A DNA stretch of 64,000 bases from Agromyces ramosus (GTDB lineage: Bacteria; Actinomycetota; Actinomycetes; Actinomycetales; Microbacteriaceae). Location: positions 2,232,001 through 2,296,000 of the forward strand of contig NZ_JAUSYY010000001.1 in assembly GCF_030817175.1 (NCBI RefSeq), given 5' to 3'. Within the stretch, counting starts at the first letter, position 1; the number at the start of each line of letters is the position of its first letter. Of the stretch, positions 5,085-36,811 are shown piece by piece. Below the pieces are notes generated by a model, which saw only the letters and a program-made list of their open reading frames with translations, was not told where the DNA came from and did no database searches. The translations under genes and the position numbers were made by a program.

Positions 5085-5122
5085 ACGGTACGCGGGGCCC
5101 GGCGGCCATGGCAGGGGTTGAC
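5085..5122 (-). promoter_or_regulatory. GTCAA-CCCC type promoter of the SDR operon
   Basis: Read on the minus strand: GTCAACCCCTGCC begins at 5122, and TACCGT (5090-5085) follows 27 nt after GTCAA. The start codon at 5061 then has a leader of roughly 17 nt with AGGAGG. This is one member of a family of similar promoters in the window. Its function is inferred from position and recurrence. Confidence 0.6.
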
Positions 5123-5192
5123 AGGGGCCTCCGGATGCCTCTCGATCGGCGCGGATTCGCGGTTCGGCGGGTAGCACGCGCCGAGAACGGCG

Positions 5193-5231
5193 GTCAACCC
5201 CTAGCCGCGCGGCTCAGCGCGGCCGTAACGT
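5193..5231 (+). promoter_or_regulatory. GTCAA-CCCC type promoter of the small membrane protein
   Basis: GTCAACCCCTAGCC starts at 5193, and TAACGT (5226-5231) lies 28 nt after GTCAA, the spacing seen for the other members. A leader of about 90 nt follows, containing an imperfect hairpin (GGTTCGGCC / GGCCGGAACC). This promoter and that of the SDR operon are divergent, 70 bp apart. Confidence 0.55.
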
Positions 5232-5330
5232 CGATGTCACGAGGCGCACCACGCCTCCAGGTTCGGCCGAACGGCCGGAACCGTCTATCCGCCTCACACT
5301 CACGAGCGCGGAACATGTGAAGGAGAGATC

Positions 5331-5495
5331 ATGAACATCCTCGTCGCCATCATCGCCATCGCCGCCGTTGTGCTGCTCATCACGGGTGGAGTCGTGCCCA
5401 CGTTGAACTTCCTGCTGTGGGTGGGGCTCGCACTGGCGATCATCGCGGTCATCGTGTTCCTCGTTCGTTACCTCGGCGGGAACCGAACCGTCTGA
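5331..5495 (+). CDS. small two-helix membrane protein
   Basis: A 54-residue hydrophobic protein with two predicted membrane helices, about residues 3-22 and 27-47, separated by a short VVPTLN turn. It ends in a basic tail (RYLGGNRTV). The start has a good ribosome binding site (AAGGAGA, 6 nt spacing). It is monocistronic: promoter upstream, strong terminator directly after. Small membrane proteins of this type are common stress-induced genes in Actinobacteria, but I cannot assign a function. Confidence 0.75.
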   Translation: MNILVAIIAIAAVVLLITGGVVPTLNFLLWVGLALAIIAVIVFLVRYLGGNRTV

Positions 5496-5507
5496 TCAGC
5501 GAAGCAG

Positions 5508-5539
5508 CGGAACGGGCGGCCTTCGGGCCGCCCGTTCCG
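5508..5539 (+). terminator. strong hairpin terminator
   Basis: A perfect 14-bp stem (CGGAACGGGCGGCC and its complement) is closed by a TTCG tetraloop, starting 12 nt after the small membrane gene. There is no long T-run, as is usual in high-GC Actinobacteria. Confidence 0.8.
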
Positions 5540-5637
5540 TATGTCCAGCCTGCTGCGGGGACCGACTGATCGGATGCCGGGTCGCCGTTCGTCCTCGGAA
5601 TGGGCCACCTCGACCGACACGCCGTATGCTGAGTGGC

Positions 5638-6030
5638 GTGGGAACCCTGTATTACGGCGATTCCGGCACCCCGATCGGCATCGAGGACCGAGCGCTCGCG
5701 CACCTGAAGATCGCCATCACAACGAAACTGCGCCGAGGAGAGAGCTTCACGCTCTCGTGGCGCCACGCCGAAGACCAGCCCCGCGGGCGCAGCACGCTCT
5801 GGCTGCACGCATCGATCCCCCTTCGTTTCGTCTTCGACGAGCCCGAGGCCCCCGAGCTCAGCCGGCAGTGGATCGAAGACCTCATGAGGTCGGCGAACAG
5901 CACGGGCGGAATCCAGCTCATTCCCGAGCAGCTCGACACCGACCCGATCCCGACGCTCCCCGAGCAGCCGGTACAGGTCGGCGTCGATGTGCAAGAGGTC
6001 GACGCCGCGAAGAACGCGCAGACCGCCTAG
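5638..6030 (+). CDS. DUF7882 family protein, copy 1
   Basis: A 130-residue protein of a small family common in Microbacteriaceae, sometimes mislabelled as an ATP-dependent DNA ligase. Conserved segments are LAHLKIAITTKLRRGESF, LWLHASIPLRFVF and a block with ANSTGG. It is paralogous to the minus-strand gene at 6936-7259. I chose the GTG at 5638: the protein then begins MGTLYY, aligning with MGKFIY of the paralogue. Also TATGCT (5625-5630) lies 7 nt upstream, as for a leaderless mRNA; the ATG at 5626 lies inside that box. The acidic tail beyond residue 100 is unique to this copy. Function unknown. Confidence 0.8.
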   Translation: MGTLYYGDSGTPIGIEDRALAHLKIAITTKLRRGESFTLSWRHAEDQPRGRSTLWLHASIPLRFVFDEPEAPELSRQWIEDLMRSANSTGGIQLIPEQLDTDPIPTLPEQPVQVGVDVQEVDAAKNAQTA

Positions 6031-6061
6031 GCGGCCTGCGCTCGACTTCGCTGAACGCTGC

Positions 6062-6556
6062 TTAGATCCGCAGGTCGGGGTCGGTGCCGGACGTGGTTTC
6101 GCCGCCGTGGATCTCACCGCGCCATGCGCCGCTCGAGCGTTCGCGGTCCTCGATGAAGTCCTTGAATCGCGCCAGGTCCTTCTTCACCTGCATGTCGTCG
6201 AGCTGCAGCGCGGCACCAGCCTGCTCGACGAATCCCTCGGGCTCCCATTCGATCTCGAGGTCGATGCGCGTGGAGTCGGGACTCAGCGGCGTGAAGCGGA
6301 CGCGGCCGTGGTGGACGACCTCGCCGATGCTGCGCCATGCCACGTGGTCGTCGGGCACCTGGTCGCCGATCTCGGCGTCGAACTCGCGCTTGACTCCGGC
6401 GATCGAGACGGTCCAGTGCGTCAACGTGTCGCCGATCTGCTCAACCGAGTCGACGCCGCCGAGGAACTCGGGGAACGACTCGAACTGGGTCCACTGGTTG
6501 TAGGCGACACGGACGGGCACATCCACATCGGTCGACGCGGTCACTGTCGTGCTCAT
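6062..6556 (-). CDS. SRPBCC family (polyketide cyclase/dehydrase-like) protein
   Basis: A 164-residue protein with the START/SRPBCC helix-grip fold, which binds a small hydrophobic ligand. The N-terminus has the typical pattern VDVPVRVAYNQWTQFESFPEFL, followed by strands and a long C-terminal helix (LQLDDMQVKKDLARFKDFIE). The ATG at 6556 is chosen because GGAGGAG lies 7 nt upstream. It has its own GTCAA-like promoter (6603-6642). No substrate can be inferred; relatives are often part of general stress regulons. Confidence 0.85.
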   Translation of the reverse strand: MSTTVTASTDVDVPVRVAYNQWTQFESFPEFLGGVDSVEQIGDTLTHWTVSIAGVKREFDAEIGDQVPDDHVAWRSIGEVVHHGRVRFTPLSPDSTRIDLEIEWEPEGFVEQAGAALQLDDMQVKKDLARFKDFIEDRERSSGAWRGEIHGGETTSGTDPDLRI

Positions 6557-6602
6557 GATGGTCTCCTCCTGTCCGGGGCAGCCGATCGGGGCCCCGTCAG
6601 CC

Positions 6603-6642
6603 ACGGTAGGCAGCATGGTCACCGTGCCGCGAGGGGCTTGTC
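6603..6642 (-). promoter_or_regulatory. GTCAA-CCCC type promoter of the SRPBCC gene
   Basis: On the minus strand GACAAGCCCCTCGC starts at 6642, and TACCGT (6608-6603) lies 29 nt after GACAA. The first element has one mismatch (T to A) to the common GTCAA. The leader is about 40 nt. Confidence 0.5.
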
Positions 6643-6699
6643 TCCCCGGGTGACGGCTGCTAGACGGGAGGTGGGGATGACGAGGGTAAGGAGTCGGCC

Positions 6700-6921
6700 A
6701 TGAGTGCCAACGAGGAACGAGCCAGCGACACCATGAGCGTCGAGCGCTGGTGGCCGCATCTGTCGATCGCGTCGAAGCACCGGTTGCTCGCCGATCTCGA
6801 CGGACCGATCGACGACGACACCGCGGCGGAGATCGAGGCGGTGCATGGCACCGCGCCGCCGGAGCGCCTCACCCGGGCCGCGCGGGACTTCATCCGCACG
6901 CAGATCGAGGCGGTCGACTGA
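6700..6921 (+). CDS. small hypothetical protein
   Basis: A 73-residue acidic soluble protein (SVERWWPHLSIASKHRLLADL...). It is predicted to be mostly helical, with no recognised domain. AAGGAG precedes the ATG by 8 nt, and TAGACG at 6661-6666 is a possible -10 box. It lies between the SRPBCC gene and the second DUF7882 gene. I do not recognise the family. Confidence 0.7.
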   Translation: MSANEERASDTMSVERWWPHLSIASKHRLLADLDGPIDDDTAAEIEAVHGTAPPERLTRAARDFIRTQIEAVD

Positions 6922-6935
6922 GTCGCGCGGCGGGG

Positions 6936-7259
6936 CTACTCGGCCTCGAACGGCTCGGTCTGCTCGGGCTCGGGCATGAAGTGGAGCCCGGCGGTGCTGT
7001 TGGCCGCGAGCAGCATCTGCTCGACCCAGAGGCGGTTGAGCGCGGGCGGTCGGTTGCCGCTGAACACGAACTGCAGGGGGATCGACTCGTGCAACCAGAT
7101 GGTCGTGCGTCCGCTGCCGTTCTCGACGCCGTGCTCCCACGTCATGGCGAAGCTCTCGGACCGGCGCAGCTTGTTGAGGATCGCGACTCGCAGGTGGGCA
7201 AGCGTGCGATCGTCGATCTCGATCTCACGCGATGACGAGTTGTAGATGAACTTGCCCAT
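6936..7259 (-). CDS. DUF7882 family protein, copy 2
   Basis: A 107-residue paralogue of the protein at 5638-6030. Shared blocks are LAHLRVAILNKLRRSESF, IWLHESIPLQFVF and LLAANSTAG; the N-terminus reads MGKFIYN. It lacks the C-terminal extension of copy 1, and its tail ends EPEQTEPFEAE. TAGAGT lies 6 nt before the ATG, consistent with a leaderless transcript. The two copies face each other across the SRPBCC and 73-residue genes, so this may be an old inverted duplication. Function unknown. Confidence 0.8.
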   Translation of the reverse strand: MGKFIYNSSSREIEIDDRTLAHLRVAILNKLRRSESFAMTWEHGVENGSGRTTIWLHESIPLQFVFSGNRPPALNRLWVEQMLLAANSTAGLHFMPEPEQTEPFEAE

Positions 7260-7319
7260 GTCGGCACTCTAGTCGGCAGGACGCCGCTCGCGCATGGCGT
7301 GTTCCACGCGTCCGGGGGT

Positions 7320-7358
7320 GTCAAGCCCCTGCCTGCGGGAGGGCCGCGCGAGTAGGAA
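7320..7358 (+). promoter_or_regulatory. GTCAA-CCCC type promoter of the alcohol dehydrogenase
   Basis: GTCAAGCCCCTGCC starts at 7320, and TAGGAA (7353-7358) lies 28 nt after GTCAA. The start codon is only 6 nt after the -10 box, so the transcript should be leaderless. Confidence 0.6.
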
Positions 7359-7364
7359 CAGACC

Positions 7365-8540
7365 ATGAGAGCAGTCACCTGGCACTCGGCGCGTTCCGTC
7401 GCCGTCGACGACGTCCCTGACCCCGTCCTGATCGAACCCACCGACGCCCTGATCAGGGTCACCGCGACCGCGATCTGCGGCTCGGACCTCCATCTCTACG
7501 ACGTGTTCGGCCCGTTCATGCACCGCGGCGACATCCTCGGCCATGAGGCGATGGGAGTGGTGGAATCAGTCGGCTCCGCCGTGCGGAAGGTCGCGGTCGA
7601 CGACCGGGTCATCGTTCCCTTCGTCATCGCCTGCGGCACCTGCTACATGTGTGCGAGGGGGCTGAGCACGCAATGCGAGCTCACCCAGAACACCGAGCAC
7701 CGCACGGGAGCGGCCCTCTACGGCTACACCGAGTTGTACGGCCGGGTCCCGGGCGGGCAGGCGGAGTACCTGCGGGTGCGACTCGCCGACGCCAATGCGC
7801 TCGTCGTCGGCCGTGACCTGCCGGACGAGCGCTACCTCTTCCTCACCGACGTGCTGCCGACGGCCTGGCAGGCCGTGCGCTACGCGAACGTCAGCCCGGG
7901 AGGCACCATGGCGGTGATCGGCCTCGGCCCGGTCGGGCAGATGGTCGTCCGCGTCGCCCGCCACGAGGGCGTGGCCGTGTTCGCGGTCGACCCCGTCGTC
8001 GAGCGCCGCCTCATGGCCGAGCGGTACGGGGCGACCACGTTCGATCTGGACGACGGTGTCGCCGAGTTGATCCGCGATGCCACGAACGGACGCGGCGCCG
8101 ACGCGGCGATCGACGCCGTCGGGCTCGAGGCCCACGGCAATCCGGGCACCGCGTTCGCGCAGAACGCCGTCGGTGCGCTGCCGAGCGGACTCGCCAAGCA
8201 GGTCATGACGCGTGCCGGCGTCGACCGTCTCGCCGCCCTGCACCTCGCCGTCGAGGTCGTGCGCCGTGGTGGCACCGTGTCGGTCGTCGGCGTCTACGCC
8301 GGCAACCTCGACCCGATGCCGATGATGACGATCTTCGACAAGCAACTCGCGATGCGGTTCGGCCAGGCGAACGTGCAGCACTGGCTCCCCGACCTCCTGC
8401 CGCTCGCCGAGGCGCCCGGCGACCCGCTCGGGCTCGAGGACCTCGCCACGCACCGCGTGCCGCTCGCCCGTGCACCGGAGATGTACGAGCTGTTCAAGCA
8501 GAAGTCGGCCGGCTGCATCAAGGTCGTACTCAAGCCGTGA
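7365..8540 (+). CDS. zinc-dependent alcohol dehydrogenase (MDR family)
   Basis: A 391-residue medium-chain dehydrogenase/reductase. The catalytic zinc site is C(38)GSDLH plus GHEAMG. The structural zinc loop has four cysteines, CGTCYMC and the C of STQC, around residues 90-105. The Rossmann motif is GLGPVG near residue 180. The segment after residue 230 (GLEAHG...) and the overall length resemble the glutathione-independent formaldehyde dehydrogenase-like subgroup; the substrate is not determined. It has its own promoter and is followed by the ABC importer operon. Confidence 0.88.
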   Translation: MRAVTWHSARSVAVDDVPDPVLIEPTDALIRVTATAICGSDLHLYDVFGPFMHRGDILGHEAMGVVESVGSAVRKVAVDDRVIVPFVIACGTCYMCARGLSTQCELTQNTEHRTGAALYGYTELYGRVPGGQAEYLRVRLADANALVVGRDLPDERYLFLTDVLPTAWQAVRYANVSPGGTMAVIGLGPVGQMVVRVARHEGVAVFAVDPVVERRLMAERYGATTFDLDDGVAELIRDATNGRGADAAIDAVGLEAHGNPGTAFAQNAVGALPSGLAKQVMTRAGVDRLAALHLAVEVVRRGGTVSVVGVYAGNLDPMPMMTIFDKQLAMRFGQANVQHWLPDLLPLAEAPGDPLGLEDLATHRVPLARAPEMYELFKQKSAGCIKVVLKP

Positions 8541-8567
8541 ACCGGCGCGTCGGGCCGACTCGCCGGG

Positions 8568-8579
8568 AGAAGCGCTTCT
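8568..8579. promoter_or_regulatory. LacI-type operator palindrome
   Basis: AGAAGCGCTTCT is a perfect 12-bp palindrome with the central CG typical of LacI-family operators. It ends one base before the GTCAA box of the importer promoter, i.e. at about -57 to -46. The core AGCGCT recurs in two sites in front of the amylopullulanase. Confidence 0.6.
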
Positions 8580-8618
8580 GTCAAGCCCTATCTGGTGGTG
8601 CGTCGAGCGACTTACCGT
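8580..8618 (+). promoter_or_regulatory. GTCAA-CCC type promoter of the first ABC importer
   Basis: GTCAAGCCC starts at 8580, and TACCGT (8613-8618) lies 28 nt after GTCAA, the same spacing as for the alcohol dehydrogenase. The -35 part (TATCTG) is less conserved. The leader to the ATG at 8669 is about 40 nt. Confidence 0.5.
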
Positions 8619-8668
8619 GACCGTGTCATCCGGTCACGAGCCGGGTCGATCGAGATGGAGGTTCGACC

Positions 8669-10057
8669 ATGTACCGACTCCGATGGGGCATCACCTGCGC
8701 GGGTGCCGCAGTCGTCGCGATCGCGCTCGGCGGGTGCGCCGTGGGCACCGGCGGCGGCGGAGCGGCCGACGATGCCGAGTACGATTCCGGAGCCGAGCTC
8801 GGCGGTGAGCTGTCGGTCATGGGCTTCTCGGGCGTCGATGAGGTGGCCACGTCGCGCGTCGAGTTCGCGGAGGCCGAGCTCGGCGATGTCGAGGTCGAGC
8901 TCATCGAGGGCGACCTCGACATCCAGCAGTTCCTCTCAGCCGTGGCATCCGGTGAGCCGCCGGAGCTGCTCTATGCCGATCGCGACCAGATCGGATCGCT
9001 CGCCGCTCGCGGCGCGATCATCCCGCTCGAACGTTGCATCGAGGGCGAGGAGATCGACATGGACCAGTTCCGGGAGTCGGCCGTCGAGCAGGTGACGCTC
9101 GACGGCCAGGTCTACGGCATCCCGGAGTTCAACCAGGTGCAGGTCACGATGGCCAACGCCGACCTCCTCGCCGCCGCCGGCGTGTCGATCGAGGACGTCA
9201 ACGGTTCCGACCGCGAGGCCATGACCCAGGCCAACCTCGCACTCACGAAGAGCGATGGGGGCTCGCTCTCGGTCATCGGCGTCGATTCCAAGCTGCCGGA
9301 GTTCCTCCCGCTGTGGGTGGCTGCGGCGGGCGGATCCATCCTGTCCGAAGACGGACGCACGGCGGCGCTCGATTCCCAGGAGGCCATCGACGCACTCACC
9401 TGGGCGGTCGGCATCTACGACGACCAGGGCGGCTTCAGCGCGGTGAAGGCGTTCCGCGACTCCGCCGACTTCTTCGGCGAGGGCAACCAGTTCGCCACGA
9501 GCACGCTCGGGGCCATGCCGATGGAGCAGTGGTACATCAATGTGCTCAACGAGGTCTCGCCCGACGCCCCGATGGCGTTCGACACCGTGCGCACCACGGA
9601 GGGCGAGCCGATCGCCTTCGCCGGCGGTTCGGCGTGGGCGATCCCGTCGGGGACCGAGAACTCCGAGGCCGCGTGCCGGTGGGCGAGGGCGATGACCTCG
9701 GTCGAGGCCTGGCAGGCCGCCGCCGACGCCCGGCTGGCCGTCCGCGAGGAGGAGGGGAAGCCCTTCACCGGCATCCTCACCGGCAACTCCGTCGCCGATG
9801 AGGAGATCCGCGGCATGGTGACCTCTGGCGGTGAACCCTGGGACTCCGGCATCGAGGCGATGTACGAGGCCAACGACAACACGGTCTCGCTTCCCGCGAA
9901 CCCCGCCGACGCCGAGTTCGAGCAGGCGATGCAGGATGCCGTGAACAGCGTGCTGAACGGGGAGGCGACGCCCGAGGAGGCGCTCGCCGAGGCCCAGGAG
10001 ACCGCCCAGCAGGCCCTCGACGAGGGCTGGGAGAAGCTCGAGAGCCGCGAGGAATGA
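8669..10057 (+). CDS. ABC transporter sugar-binding lipoprotein
   Basis: A 462-residue extracytoplasmic solute-binding protein of the MalE-like (family 1) group. The signal peptide ends in the lipobox LGGC (cysteine 23), so the mature protein is anchored to the membrane. A glycine-rich linker precedes the binding domain. Hinge and ligand regions include QVYGIPEFNQVQVTMANADLL and MPMEQWYINV. The sugar is unknown. It starts an operon with two permeases by overlapping stop and start codons. A LacI-type palindrome and a GTCAA promoter lie upstream. No ATPase gene is present in the window. Confidence 0.88.
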   Translation: MYRLRWGITCAGAAVVAIALGGCAVGTGGGGAADDAEYDSGAELGGELSVMGFSGVDEVATSRVEFAEAELGDVEVELIEGDLDIQQFLSAVASGEPPELLYADRDQIGSLAARGAIIPLERCIEGEEIDMDQFRESAVEQVTLDGQVYGIPEFNQVQVTMANADLLAAAGVSIEDVNGSDREAMTQANLALTKSDGGSLSVIGVDSKLPEFLPLWVAAAGGSILSEDGRTAALDSQEAIDALTWAVGIYDDQGGFSAVKAFRDSADFFGEGNQFATSTLGAMPMEQWYINVLNEVSPDAPMAFDTVRTTEGEPIAFAGGSAWAIPSGTENSEAACRWARAMTSVEAWQAAADARLAVREEEGKPFTGILTGNSVADEEIRGMVTSGGEPWDSGIEAMYEANDNTVSLPANPADAEFEQAMQDAVNSVLNGEATPEEALAEAQETAQQALDEGWEKLESREE

Positions 10058-11031
10058 CGAGCACCGCCGTCCGTGCGGGCGGTGGAGCGCAGCATGAGCG
10101 CTTCATCGCCCCGCAGGAGCGGGAACGGAACCGAAAGCGAGCCAGCCGGCGCAACCTGGGCTCCGCGCTCCTCTTCCTCAGTCCATGGATCGTCGGCTTC
10201 GTGGTGTTCACGGCATGGCCGATGATCTACAGCGCCTACCTCTCGCTCACCGACTACGACGTGATCAACGATCCCGAGTTCGTCGGCTTCGCGAACTACG
10301 CCGAGATGGCGTCCGACCCGAAGGTGCTCCTCGCGCTCGGCAACACGGCGTTCTTCACGTTCGTCCAGGTGCCGCTCTACGTCATCGTGTCGCTCGTCCT
10401 GGCGCTCCTGCTCGATCGGGCGGGGCGCGCCTCCGGGTTCTTCCGCACCGTCTTCTTCCTGCCGAAGATGACGCCACCGGTCGCCGTGGGCGTGCTCTTC
10501 CTCCTCCTCTTCAACGGGCAGAACGGACTCATCAACATGGTGCTCGGCTGGTTCGGCATCGACGGCCCCTCGTGGACGACCGACCCCGCGTGGGTGAAGC
10601 CGGGACTCATCATCATGTCGTTGTGGACGGTCGGGGCATCCGTCATCATCCTCCTCGCGGCACTGCGCAACGTGCCAGAGACGCTCTACGAGTCGGCGAA
10701 GCTCGACGGCGCCGGCTTCTGGCGCACCGCCGTCAGCGTGACGCTGCCGATGATCAGCCCCGCGCTGTTCTTCATCATCATCGTGAACACCATCGCGGGC
10801 CTGCAGACCTTCGACGAGGCGTACACCGCGTTCTTCGGCGCCGGGAACACGACGTACAGCAACGACGCCGCATTGTTCTACGTCATCTACCTGTTCCAGC
10901 AGGCGTTCGAGTTCCTGCACATGGGTTACGCCTCGGCACTGGCATGGGGGCTCTTCCTCGTGATCATGGTCGTCACCGCGATTCAGCTGGTCGTGTCGCG
11001 CCGGCTCGTCTACTACGAGGGGGAACGATGA
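10054..11031 (+). CDS. ABC sugar transporter permease (MalF type)
   Basis: A 325-residue inner-membrane permease with six predicted helices. The conserved cytoplasmic EAA loop reads YESAKLDGAGFWRTAVSVTLP and docks to the ATPase. The start overlaps the binding-protein stop by 4 nt (ATGA) and the end overlaps the next permease in the same way, so all three are translationally coupled. The N-terminal 40 residues are polar and cytoplasmic. Confidence 0.88.
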   Translation: MTSTAVRAGGGAQHERFIAPQERERNRKRASRRNLGSALLFLSPWIVGFVVFTAWPMIYSAYLSLTDYDVINDPEFVGFANYAEMASDPKVLLALGNTAFFTFVQVPLYVIVSLVLALLLDRAGRASGFFRTVFFLPKMTPPVAVGVLFLLLFNGQNGLINMVLGWFGIDGPSWTTDPAWVKPGLIIMSLWTVGASVIILLAALRNVPETLYESAKLDGAGFWRTAVSVTLPMISPALFFIIIVNTIAGLQTFDEAYTAFFGAGNTTYSNDAALFYVIYLFQQAFEFLHMGYASALAWGLFLVIMVVTAIQLVVSRRLVYYEGER

Positions 11032-11992
11032 CCGACCTCGACGTCGACCTGCCGGCCGGAGGAGTGGCTGCGCCCACCCCCAGGCGAGATGCGGCACTGC
11101 CCGCGGCGGTGACGGCGGTGCCGTCGACGAACATCGACGACCTGCGCAAGGGACGCCGACGCCCGGCGAAGGCGACGCGCGTGTTCGCCTGGATCGCGCT
11201 CGCGCTGCTCGGCGTCGTCTTCATCTACCCCTTCATCTGGCTCGTGAGCGCGTCGTTCAAGCCACGGAGCGAGGTGTTCGACAACCGGCTCATTCCCGAG
11301 ACGTTCACCTTCGACAACTATGTCGAGGTCTGGCAGGAGGCGCCGCTCGCACTGTGGCTCCTGAACACCGTCATCGTCACGGTGCTCGCCGCCGTCACCG
11401 TGACGCTCTCGAGCGCCATGGTCGCGTGGGGGTTCGCGTACTTCCGGTTCCGCGGCCGGAGCGCATTGTTCGCCCTCGTGCTCGCCACCATGATGCTGCC
11501 CCGGGCGCGGTGACGATGATCCCGGTCTTCCTGATCTGGAACGGGCTCGGCCAGGTGGGAACGCTCACACCCCTCTGGGCCGGCAACCTCTTCGGAAGCG
11601 CGTTCTACATCTTCCTGCTCCGCCAGTTCTTCATGACCCTCCCGCGCGACCTGTTCGAGGCCGCGCGGGTCGACGGGGCGAGCCAGTGGGGGGTCTTCTG
11701 GCGCATCGCGCTGCCGCTCTGCAAGCCCGCGCTCGCCGTGACCCTCGTGTTCGAGGTGCAGGCGGTGTGGACCGACCTGATGCGCGCCCTGATCTACCTG
11801 CGCGACTCCGACACGTTCACCGTGCCGAGGGGGCTCAAATCGCTCGTCGACGCGTTCGGCTTCGGCGGCGAGTGGCACTGGGAGATCATCGTCACGGCGA
11901 GCGTCATCACGACGATTCCGATGATCATCGTGTTCTTCCTCGCCCAGCGTCAGATCATCGACGGCGTCGCGTCGACGGGCTTGAAGGGCTGA
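11028..11992 (+). pseudogene. ABC sugar transporter permease (MalG type), frameshifted
   Basis: The frame starting at 11028 encodes a normal MalG-like N-terminus through LATMMLP, then hits TGA at 11511. From about 11501 the rest of the permease continues in another frame (PGAVTMIPVFLIW ... EAARVDGASQWGVFWRIALP, the EAA loop) to the stop at 11992. The break is in CCCCGGGCGCGG (11499-11510). One missing base in the C-run, or two extra C bases, would restore a protein of about 321 residues. It could be a real inactivating mutation or a sequencing error in a homopolymer; nothing else in the gene looks decayed. Confidence 0.8.
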
Positions 11993-11996
11993 CCGG

Positions 11997-12272
11997 TCAG
12001 TCCACGTGGCCGTCCGGGTCGAGCGGATCGTTCCGCGGCGGCCCCGGCTTGTGCTGGTCGAGCGGATCCTCACCGCGTCGGATCGCGGCATCCTGATCGC
12101 TCAGTGCCGTTCCCTCACCGCTCTGCGGTGGCAGGTCGCGCATGCGCCGCTGCTGTTCGGCTCGGCGCAGGTCCTCGATCTCGGAGCTCGGGTCGGCGCC
12201 GGCATCGGCGCCATCGGGTTGGTCGTCGGGATTCGTCAGGGTCTCGGGGCTTCGCCCGAGCGGGTGGCCCAT
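11997..12272 (-). CDS. small hydrophilic hypothetical protein
   Basis: A 91-residue, proline- and aspartate-rich protein with no predicted membrane segment. It is probably largely disordered (PDDQPDGADAGADPSSEIEDLRRAEQQRRM). The ATG at 12272 has AAAGGA upstream; the in-frame ATG at 12323 lies upstream of that site in the likely leader. It has a GTCAA-type promoter at 12322-12360. I do not recognise a family; the company of stress-type genes suggests an intrinsically disordered stress protein (inference). Confidence 0.65.
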   Translation of the reverse strand: MGHPLGRSPETLTNPDDQPDGADAGADPSSEIEDLRRAEQQRRMRDLPPQSGEGTALSDQDAAIRRGEDPLDQHKPGPPRNDPLDPDGHVD

Positions 12273-12321: not shown

Positions 12322-12360
12322 AAGCTAGGCCGGTCGGGAGGCGGCGGCGAGGGGATTGAC
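12322..12360 (-). promoter_or_regulatory. GTCAA-CCCC type promoter of the 91-residue protein
   Basis: On the minus strand GTCAATCCCCTCGCC starts at 12360, and TAGCTT (12327-12322) lies 28 nt after GTCAA. The leader is about 40 nt and ends with AAAGGA before the ATG. Confidence 0.55.
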
Positions 12361-13241: not shown

Positions 13242-14249
13242 ATGTCGAGGAGACTGGCGGATGTCGCGCGCAAGGTCGGTGTCAGCGAGGCGACCGTCAG
13301 TCGCGTGCTGAACGGCAAGCCCGGGGTGTCGGCGTCGACGCGCGACGCGGTGCTCACGGCGCTCGACGTGCTGGGGTACGAGCGGCCCACCAAGCTGCGG
13401 GGCGAACGGGCGCGGCTCGTGGGCCTCGTGATGCCCGAGCTGCAGAATCCGATCTTCCCTGCCCTCGCCGAGGCGATCGGCGGCGGGCTCGCCCAGAACG
13501 GCTATACGCCGGTGCTGTGCATCCAGACGGCGGGCGGCATCTCCGAGGCCGACTACGTCGAGCTGCTCCTGCACCAGCAGGTGTCGGGAGTGATCTTCGC
13601 CGGCGGCGCCTACGCGCAGGCCGACGTGAACCACGATCACTACGCCCGGCTGGTCGAGCTGAAACTGCCGACCGTGCTCGTGAACGCACCGATCGACGAC
13701 CTCGGCTTCGCCACCGTGTCGTGCGACGACGCGGCTTCGGTCGAGCAGGCCTTCGGTCACCTCGTGCAGCTCGGTCATGAGCGCATCGGCATTCTCCTGG
13801 GGCCGAGCGACCACATGCCGTCGCGCCGCAAGCACGAGGCGGCCCTGCGAATGGCGGAGCGCCACGGCCTCGAGCTCGGCGACGACCGGGTCGTGCACTC
13901 GCTGTACTCGCTCGAGTCGGGCCAGACGGCGGCGACCAAGCTCCTCGCGGCGGGCGTCACGGGCATCGTCTGCGCGAGCGACCCGATGGCGCTCGGCGCC
14001 ATCCGCGCCGTTCGCCGGGCCGGGCTCCGCGTGCCCGACGACGTGTCGGTCATCGGGTACGACGACTCGGCCCTGATGAATTGCACGGAACCACCGCTCA
14101 CGACGGTGCGCCAGCCGATCGAGTCGATGGGCAAGATGATCATCGAGTTGCTGATGCGCCAGATGTCGAGTGAGCGCACGATCGGCGACGAGGTGTTCTT
14201 CGCTCCCGAGCTCGTGGTGCGGGCCTCGACGTCGCCCGTCCGACGCTGA
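13242..14249 (+). CDS. LacI family transcriptional regulator
   Basis: A 335-residue repressor. The N-terminal helix-turn-helix and hinge read LADVARKVGVSEATVSRVLN; the periplasmic-binding-like effector domain runs from about residue 60 (VGLVMPELQNPIF) to the end. The ATG at 13242 gives the canonical N-terminus MSRRLADVA, and TAGCAT lies 7 nt upstream, as in leaderless mRNAs. It sits immediately before the GH13 - binding protein - permease operon, so it is probably its regulator. The AGCGCT-core palindromes at 8568, 48978 and 49055 are candidate targets (inference). Confidence 0.9.
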   Translation: MSRRLADVARKVGVSEATVSRVLNGKPGVSASTRDAVLTALDVLGYERPTKLRGERARLVGLVMPELQNPIFPALAEAIGGGLAQNGYTPVLCIQTAGGISEADYVELLLHQQVSGVIFAGGAYAQADVNHDHYARLVELKLPTVLVNAPIDDLGFATVSCDDAASVEQAFGHLVQLGHERIGILLGPSDHMPSRRKHEAALRMAERHGLELGDDRVVHSLYSLESGQTAATKLLAAGVTGIVCASDPMALGAIRAVRRAGLRVPDDVSVIGYDDSALMNCTEPPLTTVRQPIESMGKMIIELLMRQMSSERTIGDEVFFAPELVVRASTSPVRR

Positions 14250-24587: not shown

Positions 24588-25005
24588 GACGAGGTTCCTT
24601 GCGTGAAGGGTGCAACAGCAGACCCCGATGGGAGGGTCTGGGCGAATGGCCGTGCGGCCTGGCGAACCCCCGAGATACGGCGGGTTCAAAGGAGTCAATG
24701 CCGATCGGGGTGCGGATCGGCAGCGGGACTCGGCGGTCGGGTCGCGGTCAGCGGCACATTCGACAACACATCGACGCACGCGCCGGCATCATCATGCCGG
24801 TCGTCCTGAGGGCCTCGGGGGCGATCAGGGAGCGTGCGCTGTCAGTCATGGGCGCCAGTCAAACCCATACCCGAGCGTGTGTCAATTCATGACCGTCTGA
24901 TGACGGGGTGTGACATCGCACGCGGTGCGCGGCGCCTCGAGGCATCCGGCAGGATCAGGCATCCCGATGGCCAAGTTGAAAGAATCTGCGACACAACGTA
25001 GTTCT
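24588..25005 (-). other. long leader/promoter region of the winged-helix gene
   Basis: About 400 nt without a credible gene. On the minus strand TTGACA (24885-24880) could be a -35 element, but I see no convincing -10 at 16-18 nt. The leader contains a 7-bp perfect hairpin CAGACCC/GGGTCTG (24619-24640) and GGCCG/CGGCC-type pairing just upstream. No known riboswitch is recognised. Confidence 0.35.
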
Positions 25006-32079: not shown

Positions 32080-32475
32080 ATGGGTGCAGCAGAGGTCGTC
32101 TCGGTCGTCACCGAGGTGATCAGCTGGATCGCACTCGGCGGCGGCATCGCGTGCCTCCTGCTGGCGCTCCTCATCCGCATGGCCGACGGGCGGTGGCTGC
32201 GCACCGAGGCCGTCGTCATCGACGGCGAGGAGGGCAGCGTCGTGCGGTGGTTCGCCGAGGGTGCGTTCCACTCCCGGCATCTCAGCGCCGAGGAGCGCGC
32301 GCACGTGCAGCACCCCGAGGAGGAGCCCGCCTTCTACAAGCAGCGCGAGCCCGACCGGTTGCGGCTGCATGAGCCGCCCGTCGGTCGCCGGGTCATCCGC
32401 ACGCTCGGCCTCGTGCTGCTCGGCATCGCGTTCGTCGCGGCACTCGCCGGGCTCATCGCCACGCTCGTCGCCTGA
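32080..32475 (+). CDS. two-helix membrane protein, hypothetical
   Basis: A 131-residue protein with a helix at each end (about residues 11-34 and 107-129). Between them is a soluble acidic domain (WLRTEAVVIDGEEGSVVRWFAEGAFHSRHLSAEERAHV). TACCGT lies 6 nt before the ATG (leaderless). It is convergent with the TrkA gene. The family is not recognised beyond similar actinobacterial hypotheticals. Confidence 0.75.
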   Translation: MGAAEVVSVVTEVISWIALGGGIACLLLALLIRMADGRWLRTEAVVIDGEEGSVVRWFAEGAFHSRHLSAEERAHVQHPEEEPAFYKQREPDRLRLHEPPVGRRVIRTLGLVLLGIAFVAALAGLIATLVA

Positions 32476-32520
32476 GGCCGCCGGCGCGGGCCGGCACCTT
32501 GCGGCATCCGACCTCGTTCG

Positions 32521-33189
32521 CTACTCGAGCGCCGCGAACTTCTCGATGTCGCCCTCGGTGCCCGACACGATGATGAGATCGTGGTTCGAGACCACGGTCT
32601 TCTCGGTCGCATACGTGAACGGCTTGCCCGGGCTCTTCACGCCGACCACGGTGACGCGGTGCCGGGAGCGCACGCCCGACTCGGTGAGGGTCTTGCCGCG
32701 AATCGGCTTCGGCGGGTACATCTTCACGAGGGCGAAGTCGTCGTCGAACTCGATGAAGTCGAGCATGCGGCCGCTCACGAGGTGCGCGGTGCGCTCGCCG
32801 GCCTCGCGCTCGGGGTAGATGACGTGGTTCGCGCCGATGCGCTGCAGGATCTTGCCGTGCGATGCCGAGATCGCCTTCGCCCAGATCTGCGGGACCTTCA
32901 GGTCGACGAGGTTCGCCGTGATGAGCACGGATGCCTCGATCGAGGAGCCCACCGCGCAGACCGCGATCGAGAAGTCCTGTGCGCCGATCTGGCGGAGCGC
33001 GTCGATGTTGCGTGCGTCGGCGACGACCGCGTGCGTGACGCGCTCCGCCCACTTCTGCACGAGGGCCTCGTCGCCGTCGACCGCGAGCACCTCGCGACCG
33101 AGGCGGTCGAGTTGGCCTGCCGTCGCGGCGCCGAATCGGCCGAGACCGATCACGAGCACCGGGGCATCGTGCTTGATGCGATCAACCAA
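32521..33189 (-). CDS. potassium uptake regulatory protein, TrkA/KtrA (RCK)
   Basis: A 222-residue cytoplasmic gating subunit. The RCK-N domain has the nucleotide motif VIGLGRFGAATA with a distal acidic residue (VDGD), and an RCK-C domain follows (LVKMYPPKPIRGKTLTESG). It assembles as a ring on the TrkH/KtrB channel encoded just upstream. TTG 33189 overlaps the TrkH stop and gives the N-terminus VDRIKHDAPVLVIG usual in the family. Confidence 0.92.
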   Translation of the reverse strand: MVDRIKHDAPVLVIGLGRFGAATAGQLDRLGREVLAVDGDEALVQKWAERVTHAVVADARNIDALRQIGAQDFSIAVCAVGSSIEASVLITANLVDLKVPQIWAKAISASHGKILQRIGANHVIYPEREAGERTAHLVSGRMLDFIEFDDDFALVKMYPPKPIRGKTLTESGVRSRHRVTVVGVKSPGKPFTYATEKTVVSNHDLIIVSGTEGDIEKFAALE

Positions 33190-34627
33190 CGATGGGCCTC
33201 TCTTCCGGACGCCTGAACAACTGTCGGCGCTGGCTGGCCGCCAGAGCCGCGGCGAGTGTCACTGTACCAACCCGCCCCATGAACATGGTGGCGGCCATGA
33301 CGTACTTGCCCTCGGGGGGCAGCTCGGCGGTCAGGCCCGTCGAGAGGCCGCACGTGGCGAAGCCCGAGATCACGTCGAAGAGCACGAAGTCGAGCGGTTC
33401 CTTCGTGATCTGGGCGATGGCGATCGTCGACACGGCGACGATGGTCGCTCCCCACAGCACGACGCTCACCGCGAGCCGCAGGATGTCGCGGGGGATTCGC
33501 CGTCCGAACGCCTCCATCGCGGGCGCACCGCGCGCCTCGGCGAACGCCGCGAGGAACAGCACGGCGAGCGTCGTCACCTTGATGCCGCCGGCGGTCGACG
33601 CCGAGCCGCCGCCGACGAACATGAGCATGTCCGAGACGAGCATGCTCGAGCTGTTCAGGTCGTGCATGTTGATCGTCGCGAAGCCACCCGAGCGCGTCAT
33701 CGCCGACATGAAGAACGACTGGAAGACCGTGGGCGACGCGTCGAGCTGGCCGTAGGTGCGCGGGTTGTTGTACTCGAGGAGCAGGAACATCGCCGCGCCC
33801 GCGACGAAGAGGATGACCGTCGTCGCGATCGTGAGCTTGACGTGCACGCTCCACCGGCGCGGCTTGCGCCAGGTGCGCAGCAGCGCGAAGATCACCGGGA
33901 ACCCGAGGCTGCCGAGGAACACGTCGAGCATCAGGAGTGACTGGAACCAGTAGTCGTCGACGAACTCGACGGGACCCGCTGGGTTGGGGCTGAACCCCGT
34001 GTTCGTGAAGGCACTCACCGAGTAGTAGCTCGAGTACCAGGCGCTCGTGCCGAAGTCGTAGCCGGCGGCGAACATGCTCGGCATCATGGCGATCGCGATG
34101 ACGGCCTCGATGACGAGCAGGCTCGCCGCCACGGTGACCAGCAGCCCGCCGACCTCGCCGAGCCGCACCGCCTGTCGTTCGGCGACGGGTCCGACGTGGA
34201 TGCGCGACGGGTTGGTGTCGCTCGCCGCGATGAGCTTCGCGCGCAGTCCGAGCCGGCGCGAGATGACGAGACCGAGGATCGACGCGAGCGTCAGCACGCC
34301 GACGCCGCCGACGTTCATGCCGATGAAGATGACCGCGTTGCCGAACGGCGACCAGTAGGTCGCCATGTCGACGGTCGCCAGGCCCGTGACGCAGATCGTC
34401 GACACCGCCGTGAACACCGCGTCGGCGAGCGGCGTGACACTGCTCTCGCCTGCCCGTGCGATCGGCAGTGACAGCAGCAAGGTGGTGACGAGGATGAGGG
34501 TCGTGAAGATGAGGATCGCGAAGCGCGACGGCGAGTGCTTGACGAGCCCGTCGATGGCGTCGCGCACCTGCCCGAACCATGACCGCCCATCGACTCGACC
34601 CAGGCGGGCCAACGGCTGTGCGCGCAT
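33182..34627 (-). CDS. potassium channel subunit, TrkH/KtrB family
   Basis: A 481-residue potassium transporter made of four pore repeats. Selectivity-filter regions are STICVTGLAT, FTNTGFSP, TRSGGFATI and FATCGLSTG; all four carry the central glycine. A Ser/Gly-rich hinge (GGGSASTAGGIK) lies in the third repeat. GGAGGGGGC is the ribosome binding site. It is cotranscribed with the TrkA subunit (8-nt overlap) and divergent from the ArsR-type regulator. Confidence 0.93.
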   Translation of the reverse strand: MRAQPLARLGRVDGRSWFGQVRDAIDGLVKHSPSRFAILIFTTLILVTTLLLSLPIARAGESSVTPLADAVFTAVSTICVTGLATVDMATYWSPFGNAVIFIGMNVGGVGVLTLASILGLVISRRLGLRAKLIAASDTNPSRIHVGPVAERQAVRLGEVGGLLVTVAASLLVIEAVIAIAMMPSMFAAGYDFGTSAWYSSYYSVSAFTNTGFSPNPAGPVEFVDDYWFQSLLMLDVFLGSLGFPVIFALLRTWRKPRRWSVHVKLTIATTVILFVAGAAMFLLLEYNNPRTYGQLDASPTVFQSFFMSAMTRSGGFATINMHDLNSSSMLVSDMLMFVGGGSASTAGGIKVTTLAVLFLAAFAEARGAPAMEAFGRRIPRDILRLAVSVVLWGATIVAVSTIAIAQITKEPLDFVLFDVISGFATCGLSTGLTAELPPEGKYVMAATMFMGRVGTVTLAAALAASQRRQLFRRPEERPIVG

Positions 34628-34699
34628 CGAGCCCCCTCCGTGCCATCAGCGAATGCGTGAGTCATGGTACTCCCCGCCGGGAGTGACTACCCTTGGGGC

Positions 34700-35137
34700 A
34701 TGGCGGACATCTTCGATGTGGTGGCGGACTCGACGCGGCGCGACATCCTCGCGGTGCTGCTCGAACGAGAGGGCGTTCCGCATTCGGGTGGGGAGATCAG
34801 CGTCTCAGAGATCGTGACGGCGCTCGGGGCGAGCCAGCCGACGGTGTCCAAGCACTTGAAGGTGCTGCGCGAGTCCGGACTCGTCGTCGTGCGCGAAGAG
34901 GGCCAGCACCGCTACTACAAGCTCGACCGCACCCCGCTCGAGACGCTCGAAGACTGGCTGATCCCGTTCGTGTCATCGGATGCCGCGGCCGACGCCGCCA
35001 CGCTGGCCGGCGCCGAATTCGGCGACGAGACCGCGCTCAACCACGAGCAGCGGGCGTTCGCGTCGGCGATCGGCAAGGCGTTCGCCGAGACCGCCCACCA
35101 GGTCACTGCGGTCGTCGCGCCGAAGAAGCGTCGTTAG
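34700..35137 (+). CDS. ArsR-type winged-helix regulator
   Basis: A 145-residue regulator beginning MADIFDVVADSTRRDILAVLLE. The recognition helix region is ISVSEIVTALGASQPTVSKHLKVLRESGLV, and the wing is REEGQHRYYKLD. No metal-binding cysteines are present. The C-terminal 50 residues are Ala-rich. TACCCT lies 6 nt before ATG 34700 (leaderless), which argues against the in-frame start at 34664. It is divergent from trkH, which it may control (inference). Confidence 0.88.
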   Translation: MADIFDVVADSTRRDILAVLLEREGVPHSGGEISVSEIVTALGASQPTVSKHLKVLRESGLVVVREEGQHRYYKLDRTPLETLEDWLIPFVSSDAAADAATLAGAEFGDETALNHEQRAFASAIGKAFAETAHQVTAVVAPKKRR

Positions 35138-35153
35138 CGCCTGGCCTGCGCAC

Positions 35154-35633
35154 TCAGCTCACGAGGGCGACCACGAGGCACACGCACGCCACCGCCGATG
35201 TGAGCGAGCGCACGTGGTTCCACGCCTGCCAGCCCGGCCGGAACTCTCCCCAGGCGGCGGCGAGCGCCGCGTCGTCGCTCGCCGACGCCGCTGCGAGCCG
35301 GTTGTTGCGCGGCACGTTCGCACCGCCCGTGACGCCGACCACCCCGACGAGGTAGACGACGGCCCCGGCGATGGCCCACCAGGGCGCCGCCAGCTGACCG
35401 GCGATGGCGAGCACGACGAGGGCGAGCGCGACGAGGGCGGTGCCGAAGATGGCGAGCATGAGCGGCGCACGCACGGCCGTGACGTTGATCTCGCGCATGG
35501 CCCGTGCCGCATCGGCGGCCGGCAGCCGATGCAGCCCTTGGATGACGAACCCCGAGAAGGCGTAGAAGACCCCGGAGACGACCCCCGTGCCGAGGATCGC
35601 GACGACGAGCAGCACATCGATGAACACGGTCAT
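35154..35633 (-). CDS. DUF1772 (anthrone oxygenase-like) membrane protein
   Basis: A 159-residue protein with four predicted helices and the DUF1772 pattern: VVSGVFYAFSGFVIQGLHRLP and GGANVPRNNRL in the loop before the last helix. CAGACT lies 6 nt upstream of the ATG. Members are often called anthrone oxygenases, but the role in bacteria is not established. Confidence 0.85.
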   Translation of the reverse strand: MTVFIDVLLVVAILGTGVVSGVFYAFSGFVIQGLHRLPAADAARAMREINVTAVRAPLMLAIFGTALVALALVVLAIAGQLAAPWWAIAGAVVYLVGVVGVTGGANVPRNNRLAAASASDDAALAAAWGEFRPGWQAWNHVRSLTSAVACVCLVVALVS

Positions 35634-35658
35634 GTGGCAAGTCTGGCGTGCGCCACCG

Positions 35659-36168
35659 TCAGCGGAGGGGCTTGATCATCTCGAGCTCGAGGCCGCCGGG
35701 CTCGAGCTCGTACTCGCGACTGCGACCGGTGAGCGTGAACCCGAGCTTCTCGTAGAACCGGATCGCGCGGGGGTTGTCCTCGTGCACCTCGAGCCGGAGG
35801 GTGTCGCCGAACCCGCGCGCCCACTGCTCCACGGCGTCGAGCAGCAAGCGGGAGACGCCGGCCGCGTCGCCGCGGTAGTCGGGCGCGACGTACACGCCGA
35901 CGAGCAGCGGGCCCGTCGCGGCATCCGGGATGTAGCCGCCCATCTGCCCGACCCAGCGCTCGCCGTCGATCGCGACGATCGACGTCTGGCCGTGGGTTGT
36001 GCCGCGAGCTGCGCGCATGCGCCATACCGGCTCCTCGACGTCGAGCGCGTGCGCGAGCGTCTCGGCGTAGGCGATCGGGTAGTCGCGGAGCATCTCGAGC
36101 CGCAGCGCCCGCACCGCCTGCCAGTCGGCTTCCGAGGTCGTGCGGATGAGGATGTCGTGGCGCGGCAT
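35659..36168 (-). CDS. GNAT family N-acetyltransferase
   Basis: A 169-residue acetyltransferase. The acetyl-CoA-binding region is VGVYVAPDYRGDAAGVSRLLLDAVEQWA, and the last strand is LEVHEDNPRAIRFYEKLGF. TAGCGT lies 6 nt before the ATG (leaderless). The acceptor (amine or protein) is unknown. It is downstream of the divergent bS22 promoter region. Confidence 0.9.
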   Translation of the reverse strand: MPRHDILIRTTSEADWQAVRALRLEMLRDYPIAYAETLAHALDVEEPVWRMRAARGTTHGQTSIVAIDGERWVGQMGGYIPDAATGPLLVGVYVAPDYRGDAAGVSRLLLDAVEQWARGFGDTLRLEVHEDNPRAIRFYEKLGFTLTGRSREYELEPGGLELEMIKPLR

Positions 36169-36285
36169 CCTTCGACGCTAACCCATGGGCAGGGGGCCGG
36201 CGCGCGATCCGGTAGACTACCCCGAGGCTTTCAAGCCAACGGCCGCGGCACGCGCGGCCGACTCGATCTTTTCTGTGAGGTTCTG

Positions 36286-36384
36286 ATGGGTTCCGTCATC
36301 AAGAAGCGCCGCAAGCGCATGGCGAAGAAGAAGCACCGCAAGCTGCTGCGCAAGACGCGTCACCAGCGTCGCAACAAGAAGTAG
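36286..36384 (+). CDS. ribosomal protein bS22 (AURKAIP1/COX24-like)
   Basis: A 32-residue, extremely basic peptide, MGSVIKKRRKRMAKKKHRKL... It matches the actinobacterial small-subunit protein bS22 (related to mitochondrial mS38). It sits in the decoding-centre region of the 30S subunit in mycobacteria (known from the family). TAGACT at 36212-36217 is a likely promoter. The leader carries a 7-bp hairpin GGCCGCG/CGCGGCC (36241-36259). GAGG precedes the ATG and a terminator follows. Confidence 0.93.
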   Translation: MGSVIKKRRKRMAKKKHRKLLRKTRHQRRNKK

Positions 36385-36403
36385 GCTTCCGCTTCACCGG
36401 CTG

Positions 36404-36434
36404 AGCGTCAGGCCCCTGCGGCCTGGCGCTTTTC
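36404..36434 (+). terminator. terminator of bS22
   Basis: Hairpin with arms GCGTCAGGCC and GGCCTGGCGC (one bulge), loop CCTGC, followed by TTTT. It begins 20 nt after the bS22 stop. Confidence 0.75.
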
Positions 36435-36463
36435 GCTGTACCCGGGCGGCGTACCCTGAGAAG

Positions 36464-36736
36464 GTGCCCCCACGCGACATCCGCCTCACGCTCATCGGCA
36501 AGCCCGGCTGCCACCTCTGCGACGACGCACGCGAGGTCGTGCTCGGCGTCGTCGCGGAGATCGAGGCGACGGATACCTCGCGCCGCCCGCTGCTCGACGA
36601 GGTGTCGATCCTCGACGACGACGAGCTGCGCGCGCGCTATGCCGAGGAGATCCCGGTGCTCCTCATCGACGGCGAGGTGCACAACTACTGGCGCATCGAC
36701 CCGGTGCGCCTGAAGACGGCACTGCTCGCGCGCTGA
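36464..36736 (+). CDS. glutaredoxin-like protein
   Basis: A 90-residue thioredoxin-fold protein (DUF836/glutaredoxin type) with redox motif C16-H-L-C19, the cis-proline segment EEIPVLLIDG and a short C-terminal helix. TACCCT lies 6 nt before the GTG start (leaderless). Probably a cytoplasmic thiol reductase; the partner is unknown. Confidence 0.88.
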   Translation: MPPRDIRLTLIGKPGCHLCDDAREVVLGVVAEIEATDTSRRPLLDEVSILDDDELRARYAEEIPVLLIDGEVHNYWRIDPVRLKTALLAR

Positions 36737-36773
36737 CCGGCGTGCGCGGGTCGTAGCCGCCTGGCCTCGACCG

Positions 36774-36811
36774 GTCAACCCGTTGCCGCCCGGTGAGCGG
36801 CCGCGTTGACT
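36774..36811 (+). promoter_or_regulatory. GTCAA-CCC type promoter of the FAD-Rieske gene
   Basis: GTCAACCCGTTGCC starts at 36774, and TTGACT (36806-36811) lies 27 nt after GTCAA. The ATG follows 6 nt later, so the mRNA is leaderless, as for the alcohol dehydrogenase. The -35 part (TTGCCG) is well formed. Confidence 0.55.

Follow-up and report, generated by a model that had tools for sequence, protein, structure and literature searches.

A conserved GTCAA-N-CCC element at a fixed distance from the -10 box marks a promoter class of apparent general stress genes in Agromyces ramosus and other Microbacteriaceae

Introduction

A stretch of 64,000 nt from the Agromyces ramosus genome (4.01 Mb, single contig NZ_JAUSYY010000001.1), hereafter the window, contains seven promoter-like sites in which the motif GTCAA-N-CCC precedes a -10 hexamer by 27–29 nt. 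The most satisfactory explanation, to which we give a probability of about 0.7, is that all seven sites are members of a single promoter class, that this class drives an apparent general stress regulon in Agromyces and in many further Microbacteriaceae, and that it is served by the primary sigma factor together with a putative activator. Of the two parts that a member of the class would have, the upstream one, [T]GTCAA-N-CCC-[C/T]-[T]-[G]-[C], would span roughly -46 to -33, and the other would be a -10 box C-S-T-A-S-C-G-T. The -10 box would be read by RNA polymerase with the primary sigma factor, while a putative sequence-specific activator would bind where sigma region 4 normally sits or just upstream of it, thereby supplying the missing -35 contact under stress either by class II activation or by 'sigma adaptation'. 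Direct observation covers the element itself, the spacing, the intergenic location, the conservation and the families of the target genes.

The seven sites of the window

The sites had been listed in an earlier note made from the letters of this DNA, and all seven were found at the coordinates given there; the listed gaps between GTCAA and the -10 hexamer (27, 28, 29, 28, 28, 28 and 27 nt) were likewise reproduced, which confirms the underlying observation. The consensus in the note was somewhat too strict: GTCAA is exact in six of the seven sites, the one at 6642 reading GACAA; the position given as S in GTCAA-S-CCCC is occupied by T in the site at 12360; and the hexamer TAnnnT is present in five sites, its place being taken by TAGGAA in the site at 7320 and by TTGACT in the site at 36774.

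The core motif GTCAANCCC occurs six times in the window, compared to means of 0.6 and 1.3 in random sequences of order-3 and order-1 Markov type, respectively, and a segment of 7.2 kb holds five of the 74 copies present in the whole genome (0.13 expected). For a further search a two-block weight matrix was built from 64 sites of other genomes, excluding those of the A. ramosus genome; the 64 sites had been selected for GTCAANCCC with TAnnnT at 27–29 nt, and among them are orthologues of window promoters 1 and 2. When both strands were scanned at a score of 8 or more, the matrix recovered exactly the seven sites and none besides. Their scores ranged from 30.9 to 12.4, the two lowest belonging to the sites without TAnnnT (promoters 4 and 7). 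In 40 second-order Markov sequences the mean number of matches per window was 0.5 at scores of at least 10, 0.2 at 12 and 0.075 at 14, and the highest score, reached in one of the sequences, was 22.8.

Placement and spacing in the genome

The intergenic or coding status of a site was taken from gene calls made by a codon-usage script, which is unreliable on some loci. The 74 genomic copies of GTCAANCCC are divided into 35 intergenic and 39 coding ones, while only about 11% of the sequence is intergenic (p 4e-15). TAnnnT follows 14 of the 35 intergenic copies at 27–29 nt (four at 27, eight at 28 and two at 29) and a further three at 38 nt, and it does not occur at any of the remaining spacings between 10 and 37; among the coding copies it is found at 27–29 nt in 1 of 39. 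The matrix was further applied to 951 kb, consisting of the window, 39 sampled stretches of 20 kb and the Wbl and sigma loci, where a score of at least 13 was reached by 13 matches, six of them in the window. All 13 were intergenic and located upstream of a gene on the same strand. Together with the share of intergenic copies, this bears out the claim that the motif lies upstream of genes rather than inside them.

The spacing was also compared with that of permuted motifs: in a genome sample of 844 kb TAnnnT was present at 27–29 nt in 9 of 13 intergenic copies of GTCAANCCC, against 9 of 571 for 200 permuted patterns. A sequence-only model (R1), built from 77 sites, 13 of which came from the A. 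ramosus genome, produced 43 matches in the genome at E ≤10, including 16 below 0.1. Fifteen of these 16 were intergenic, and the remaining one (L198) was placed inside a gene call, upstream of a gene for a DJ-1/PfpI protein.

Two further ideas were discarded. Enrichment of the bare motif turned out to be uninformative without placement, since GTCAASCCCCT occurred 5 times versus 7 for its reversed controls and GTCAANCCC 74 times versus 84 for the reversed control. A second spacing of 38 nt, seen at the three A. ramosus sites of trxB, sodA and an ABC permease gene, was not supported by the loci of relatives, with none at 38 nt and one at 39. In the first of the three (L034), upstream of the thioredoxin reductase gene trxB, GTCAACCCC stands 38 nt before TAGACT and overlaps a promoter of the SigR/SigH type (GGAAT-N18-GTT, read by eye).

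Anatomy of the promoters and the start of transcription

The composition of the element was examined in 92 aligned promoters and its position relative to genes in 152 promoters with a start codon; both sets include orthologues and their members are not independent. The upstream block of the 92 promoters reads T(52%)-GTCAA-N-CCC-C/T-T(57%)-G(58%)-C(58%) and is followed by about 15–18 weakly conserved bases and then by the -10 block C(84%)-S-TA-S-C(80%)-G(82%)-T-S-G/A. The 100% values of GTCAA, CCC, TA and the final T arose because these bases were used for selecting the promoters; when no selection was made on the -10 box, TA was still present at 27–29 nt in 72% of 142 intergenic copies. As the spacing changes, the weakly conserved T, G and C columns move with GTCAA and not with the -10 box, and the flexible part is therefore the spacer below them. 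The conserved element is centred near -41, and its distance to the -10 box is fixed at 27–29 nt. A strong TTGACA-like -35 is not apparent in the 92 promoters. The stretch that separates the composite element from the CS ahead of the -10 box shows weak column preferences only, with no motif at the position of the PafBC one.

In the 152 promoters the start codon follows the hexamer after 6 nt in 15 cases, 7 nt in four, 3 nt in one and 13 nt in one, and after at least 18 nt in all the rest. The 19 promoters with a start codon 6–7 nt after the hexamer present the pattern that leaderless transcripts would give if transcription started at the expected place. In the window, promoters 4 and 7, both without TAnnnT, likewise have 6 nt between hexamer and start codon.

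Conservation among Microbacteriaceae

The SDR oxidoreductase gene behind promoter 1 was used as the entry to related genomes. A scan of named genomes with the SDR protein, which in A. ramosus is 94% identical to that of A. subbeticus, gave 412 candidates, from which 80 loci were kept; by their record titles 44 of these were counted as Microbacteriaceae and 36 as other groups. The 44 Microbacteriaceae loci contain 119 copies of GTCAANCCC, 107 of them intergenic, and TAnnnT is located at 27, 28 and 29 nt in 16, 47 and 15 of these 107, respectively, with one other occurrence at any spacing from 10 to 38. The 36 loci of other groups contain 18 copies, none with TAnnnT at 27–29 nt. Permuted patterns in the loci of relatives had TAnnnT at this distance in 15 of 811 cases, against 78 of 107 for the element. 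The same peak was evident in 1121 upstream regions, where 20, 58 and 16 GTCAA-to-TAnnnT spacings fell at 27, 28 and 29 nt and at most two at any other value from 8 to 44.

Directly upstream of the SDR gene, GTCAANCCC with TAnnnT at 27–29 nt was present in 34 of the 44 Microbacteriaceae loci, GTCAANCCC alone in four (L148, L154, L155 and L156) and a partial form in another four (L129, L136, L145 and L152), while two (L144 and L151) had no countable element there. In the 36 loci of other groups GTCAANCCC was found in this position in none. The remaining window promoters were followed through tblastn rows of their target proteins. The element was found in 20 of 20 rows for the small membrane protein of promoter 2 (as GTCAANCCC), in 4 of 4 for the solute-binding protein of promoter 5, in 1 of 2 for the disordered protein of promoter 6 (again as GTCAANCCC) and in 8 of 9 for the alcohol dehydrogenase of promoter 4, where it lies 45–46 nt ahead of the start codon, the ninth protein being only 31% identical. 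For promoter 7, one relative (L132) has the element 44 nt before the start. The SRPBCC orthologues of promoter 3 carry CAA-N-CCC in 21 of 22 rows, mostly within GGCAA, GACAA or CGCAA, with GTCAA and TTCAA occurring once each, and the core at this promoter is therefore CAA-N-CCC. Across orthologous promoters the element is kept and the spacers drift, so that the predicted conservation upstream of Microbacteriaceae orthologues is borne out.

A broader survey showed that the class belongs to the Microbacteriaceae, although it is not found in all of them. At E ≤0.02 a match was obtained in 62 of 150 Microbacteriaceae genomes. At E ≤0.01 the order yielded 31 matching genomes out of 248 (15 within the family and 16 outside), and the 11 genomes with at least two matches were all Microbacteriaceae. 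Fourteen of the 16 matches outside the family were read, of which 8 were intergenic and 6 coding, with GTCAA-N-CCC and TAnnnT present in two of the 8; the other two (G153 and G163) consisted of one intergenic match without GTCAA and one coding match. A laxer search at E 0.1 was made in 39 chosen genomes. It gave no match in any of the 14 reduced genomes (<2 Mb), and weak, in several cases coding, matches in 9 of 20 larger genomes that had been without a match earlier. Four of the five genomes taken from outside the family also matched, and this threshold is therefore not discriminating.

A wider variant, AA-N-CCCC, was considered for the stress loci found in other groups and rejected, as no spacing peak appeared in 5 Micrococcaceae, 6 Cellulomonad-group, 10 Actinoplanes-group and 2 other loci (one of the 6 Cellulomonad-group loci, L179, is titled Sphaerisporangium). 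Three variant copies with GAAA or CAAA before CCCC and TAGCGT at the right distance (L353, L357 and L365) stand in front of genes, two of them in genomes that do not belong to the family and the third in one that does; the one in L357 precedes an SRPBCC-like gene, as read by eye.

Target genes

Apart from those in the window, the targets in A. ramosus comprise small acidic proteins, a glycogen debranching enzyme, a haem-oxygenase-like enzyme, an epimerase and DJ-1/PfpI, with ChaB as a weaker match (E 0.2); the copies at the dodecin and FMN reductase genes lack TAnnnT. In relatives the element precedes genes for CsbD, Mn-catalase, a ferritin-like (Dps-type) protein, a CBS-domain protein, a thiamine pyrophosphate (TPP) enzyme and topoisomerase IB, and also, from sequences read by eye, DUF7882, glucose-6-phosphate dehydrogenase, CinA/PncC, LigD and maltokinase. 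These families occur in general stress regulons elsewhere. The proposal that the targets form a stress regulon is borne out as far as gene families show, and what they look like is a general stress regulon.

A DUF7882 (PF25355) protein is encoded at 5626-6030 (+) in the window, the Pfam assignment having been made for this copy. The gene cluster to which it belongs, with 38 copies spread over 18 of the 29 stress loci, ranks second in recurrence after SDR; in L315 and L320 relatives of this protein are encoded downstream of the element.

Promoters and target units of the window

The features of the window are listed in Table 1. Promoters 1 and 2 (5085-5231) are divergent, about 70 bp apart, and a similar pair is present in many Agromyces loci. 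The genes of target unit 1 probably form a single operon, because the gaps between them are short. One further copy of the motif, GTCAAACCC at 24858 (+), is intergenic and has no TAnnnT at 27–29 nt; the nearest gene call on the same strand is 968 nt further on, and the copy falls outside the class.

Table 1. Coordinates of the seven promoters and their target genes in the window.
Feature	Position	Strand	Matrix score	Spacing (nt)	Remarks
Promoter 1, GTCAA, then CCCCTGCC	5118..5122	-	30.9		
Promoter 1, -10 box TACCGT	5085..5090	-		27	
Target unit 1: SDR oxidoreductase, DUF7218/Rho_N protein, DNA topoisomerase IB	2911..5061	-			
SDR oxidoreductase, start codon ATG	5061	-			picked from orthologue starts
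DUF7218/Rho_N protein	3895-4161	-			target unit 1
DNA topoisomerase IB	2911-3888	-			target unit 1
Promoter 2, GTCAA, then CCCCTAGCC	5193..5197	+	30.4		back to back with promoter 1
Promoter 2, -10 box TAACGT	5226..5231	+		28	
Target 2: 54-residue membrane protein	5331..5495	+			
Promoter 3, GACAA, then GCCCCTCGC	6638..6642	-	20.1		
Promoter 3, -10 box TACCGT	6603..6608	-		29	
Target 3: SRPBCC / polyketide cyclase-like protein	6062..6556	-			
Promoter 4, GTCAA, then GCCCCTGCC	7320..7324	+	14.4		
Promoter 4, -10 position TAGGAA	7353..7358	+		28	not TAnnnT; ATG 6 nt on; leaderless by position
Target 4: zinc-dependent alcohol dehydrogenase family protein	7365..8540	+			
Promoter 5, GTCAA, then GCCCTATCT	8580..8584	+	25.8		
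Promoter 5, -10 box TACCGT	8613..8618	+		28	
Target unit 5: ABC importer	8669..11992	+			solute-binding protein 8669-10057, permease 10054-11031, further open reading frames
Promoter 6, GTCAA, then TCCCCTCGCC	12356..12360	-	27.2		
Promoter 6, -10 box TAGCTT	12322..12327	-		28	
Target 6: small polar protein	11997..12272	-			disordered by eye; no NCBIfam match
Promoter 7, GTCAA, then CCCGTTGCC	36774..36778	+	12.4		weakest
Promoter 7, -10 position TTGACT	36806..36811	+		27	not TAnnnT; ATG 6 nt on; leaderless by position
Target 7: FAD-dependent oxidoreductase with Rieske domain	36818..38368	+			

Which factor may read the element

The earlier note had left the choice between an activator site and an extended -35 of an alternative sigma factor open. 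The second possibility would mean that a sigma factor of the extracytoplasmic function (ECF) or SigB/F type reads GTCAA-N-CCCC as an extended -35 along with the -10 box. It would fit the resemblance of the targets to SigB-type general stress genes, the CGT of the -10 box, which is shared with many ECF -10 boxes, and the presence of an ECF sigma gene (L355) behind a strong copy of the element; the higher share of matches among SigB/F-bearing genomes, given below, also counts in its favour. However, the spacer between -35 and -10 of ECF promoters measures about 15–19 nt, and a distance of 27–29 nt exceeds by roughly one turn of the helix what a single sigma factor could span; we know of no sigma factor that reads elements so far apart. 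Moreover, the sigma search of the A. ramosus genome detected one RpoD (primary) and a set of ECF-type sigmas, eleven of which were read, and no SigB/F-type sigma, the scores being of RpoD level only. Given this set of sigmas and an invariant part of the element located at about -45 to -37, we regard an alternative sigma factor as improbable and favour the activator.

Within the family, SigB/F-type sigmas were called by an author-set line of 160 bits, which 18 of the 150 Microbacteriaceae genomes passed, one of the 150 being above the curated cut-off. By the same line 50 of the 62 matching genomes have no SigB/F-type sigma, including G025 with 10 matches, which also speaks against an alternative sigma. 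In the order, 49 of 149 genomes carry such sigmas at E 1e-45, of which 48 do not belong to the family; these counts do not amount to a one-for-one replacement of SigB. As a separate observation, the ECF sigma of L355 resembles SigK (read by eye) and stands, in one relative, behind an element with a score of 29.5, a possible link from the regulon to an ECF sigma.

Comparison with known actinobacterial systems gave no regulator, known or tested, that fits, in agreement with the failure of the earlier note to recognise the motif. WhiB7 binds SigA region 4 and an AT-rich motif immediately above the -35 (PMC3905903, in excerpt). The promoters of WhiB7/WblC in Mycobacterium and Streptomyces are similar to the present ones in being primary-sigma promoters with an extra element just above the -35 that marks a stress regulon (same excerpt), and a WhiB-like protein (WhiB1 or WhiB2) sitting on region 4 of the primary sigma might read the element in the same way. 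Its location just upstream of -35 is the one used by WhiB7 in that account, and the A. ramosus genome has two Wbl genes. In contrast to the WhiB7/WblC case, with its AT-rich motif above a SigA-like -35, the element here is GTCAA-N-CCCC, not AT-rich, and lacks a clear -35, and no recognisable AT-hook was seen in the two Wbl sequences read. Each of the 14 reduced genomes without the motif has two Wbl genes, as do 14 of the 16 genomes with it, while the other two (G298 and G338) have three; therefore no Wbl follows the motif, as judged by gene counts alone and not by orthology, and a WhiB-like reader appears unlikely.

Promoters dependent on PafBC have a TAnnnT -10 box, but their motif lies nearer to it than the element described here, which argues against a WYL-domain regulator related to PafBC as the factor adapting the primary sigma to these promoters. 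There are also likenesses: PafBC takes a place between sigma domain 4 and the DNA of the promoter, with AfsR acting similarly (PMC11804915, in excerpt), and its site is non-palindromic (PMC11804915 and PMC6789036, in excerpt), so that PafBC (RecA-NDp) promoters combine, as far as these excerpts go, a non-palindromic element and the primary sigma with an activator that replaces the -35 contact. The targets here, in contrast, are mostly general stress genes, with DNA-repair genes as a minority. WYL matches were present in all 16 motif-bearing genomes; they were also present in 13 of the 14 motif-less reduced genomes, mostly two in each, and four motif-bearing genomes had only two. The WYL gene counts do not follow the motif, and a reader of this type has about the same low likelihood as a WhiB-like one.

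No regulator gene is a common target of the element. Regulators behind it are single cases, namely of Lrp type (L038), GntR type (L054, a copy without TAnnnT), XRE type (L368) and the ECF sigma of L355. The regulator neighbours shared by the 29 stress loci, as read by eye, are LacI-type in seven loci, MarR-like in three and MerR-like in three. The LacI-type gene of the window (read by eye, 13305-14249, +) is one that recurs in 7 of the 29 loci; this recurrence probably goes with the adjoining sugar ABC genes.

Several observations weigh against the reading of the seven sites as promoters of the primary sigma with a putative activator. TAnnnT is absent from two of the seven window sites. The stress response of the target genes is judged from gene families alone, and activation is preferred to repression because the spacing is fixed. 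As many as 88 of the 150 Microbacteriaceae genomes have no match at E 0.02, and 11 of 20 larger ones chosen from these still have none at E 0.1. SigB/F-bearing genomes match more often than the others (12 of 18 versus 50 of 132, p 0.02), but this association fades when genomes below 2.4 Mb are left out (12 of 18 versus 49 of 101, p 0.2). A further point concerns the -35 region, where the earlier note had placed T-n-GCC. At least three matches to TTGACA are somewhat commoner than expected in the 92 promoters (61, with 45.1 expected), and therefore a weak -35 remnant is possible. This lends the placement weak support, while against it the columns in question are conserved at 50–58%, and at least four matches to a TTGACA-like -35 occur in 11 promoters, no more commonly than expected (7.7).

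The controls have exceptions as well: some permuted patterns with few copies had every one of them between genes too (5 of 5, 10 of 10), and one permuted pattern reached 10 copies at 27–29 nt in the loci of relatives. The bare 9-mer GTCAANCCC is no commoner than its reversed control, and the class is marked solely by placement and spacing. The last point would also be expected if the sites were a chance similarity or a spread repeat element with no regulatory class behind them. Such an origin has a negligible probability, being contradicted by the spacing histograms, the intergenic placement, the preservation of the element amid divergent spacers and the permuted-pattern controls.

Significance

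SigB regulons include the families CsbD, Dps-like ferritin, Mn-catalase, DJ-1/PfpI, CBS-domain and SDR, and the targets described here overlap with those of the SigB-type regulons of Bacillus and Streptomyces. The A. ramosus genome differs from these systems in having no SigB/F-type sigma, and the elements and their spacing differ from the SigB consensus. With a putative activator site that would abut or overlap the -35 and that keeps a constant distance to the -10 box, the class is similar to class II sigma-70 promoters of the MarA/SoxS or Spo0A type.

Among the literature matches listed there was no account of the control of general stress genes in Microbacteriaceae. The element offers a defined bait for the regulator together with a list of targets, three of which are of unknown function (DUF7882, DUF7218 and the 54-residue membrane protein). 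If the regulator does replace the -35 contact, it would be a further case of sigma adaptation in actinobacteria. More tentatively, and with the odds somewhat against it, the general stress response of many Microbacteriaceae might operate without a SigB-type sigma, a single lineage-specific putative activator remodelling the primary-sigma polymerase at promoters where GTCAA-N-CCCC at -45 replaces the -35 box, and serving the whole regulon.

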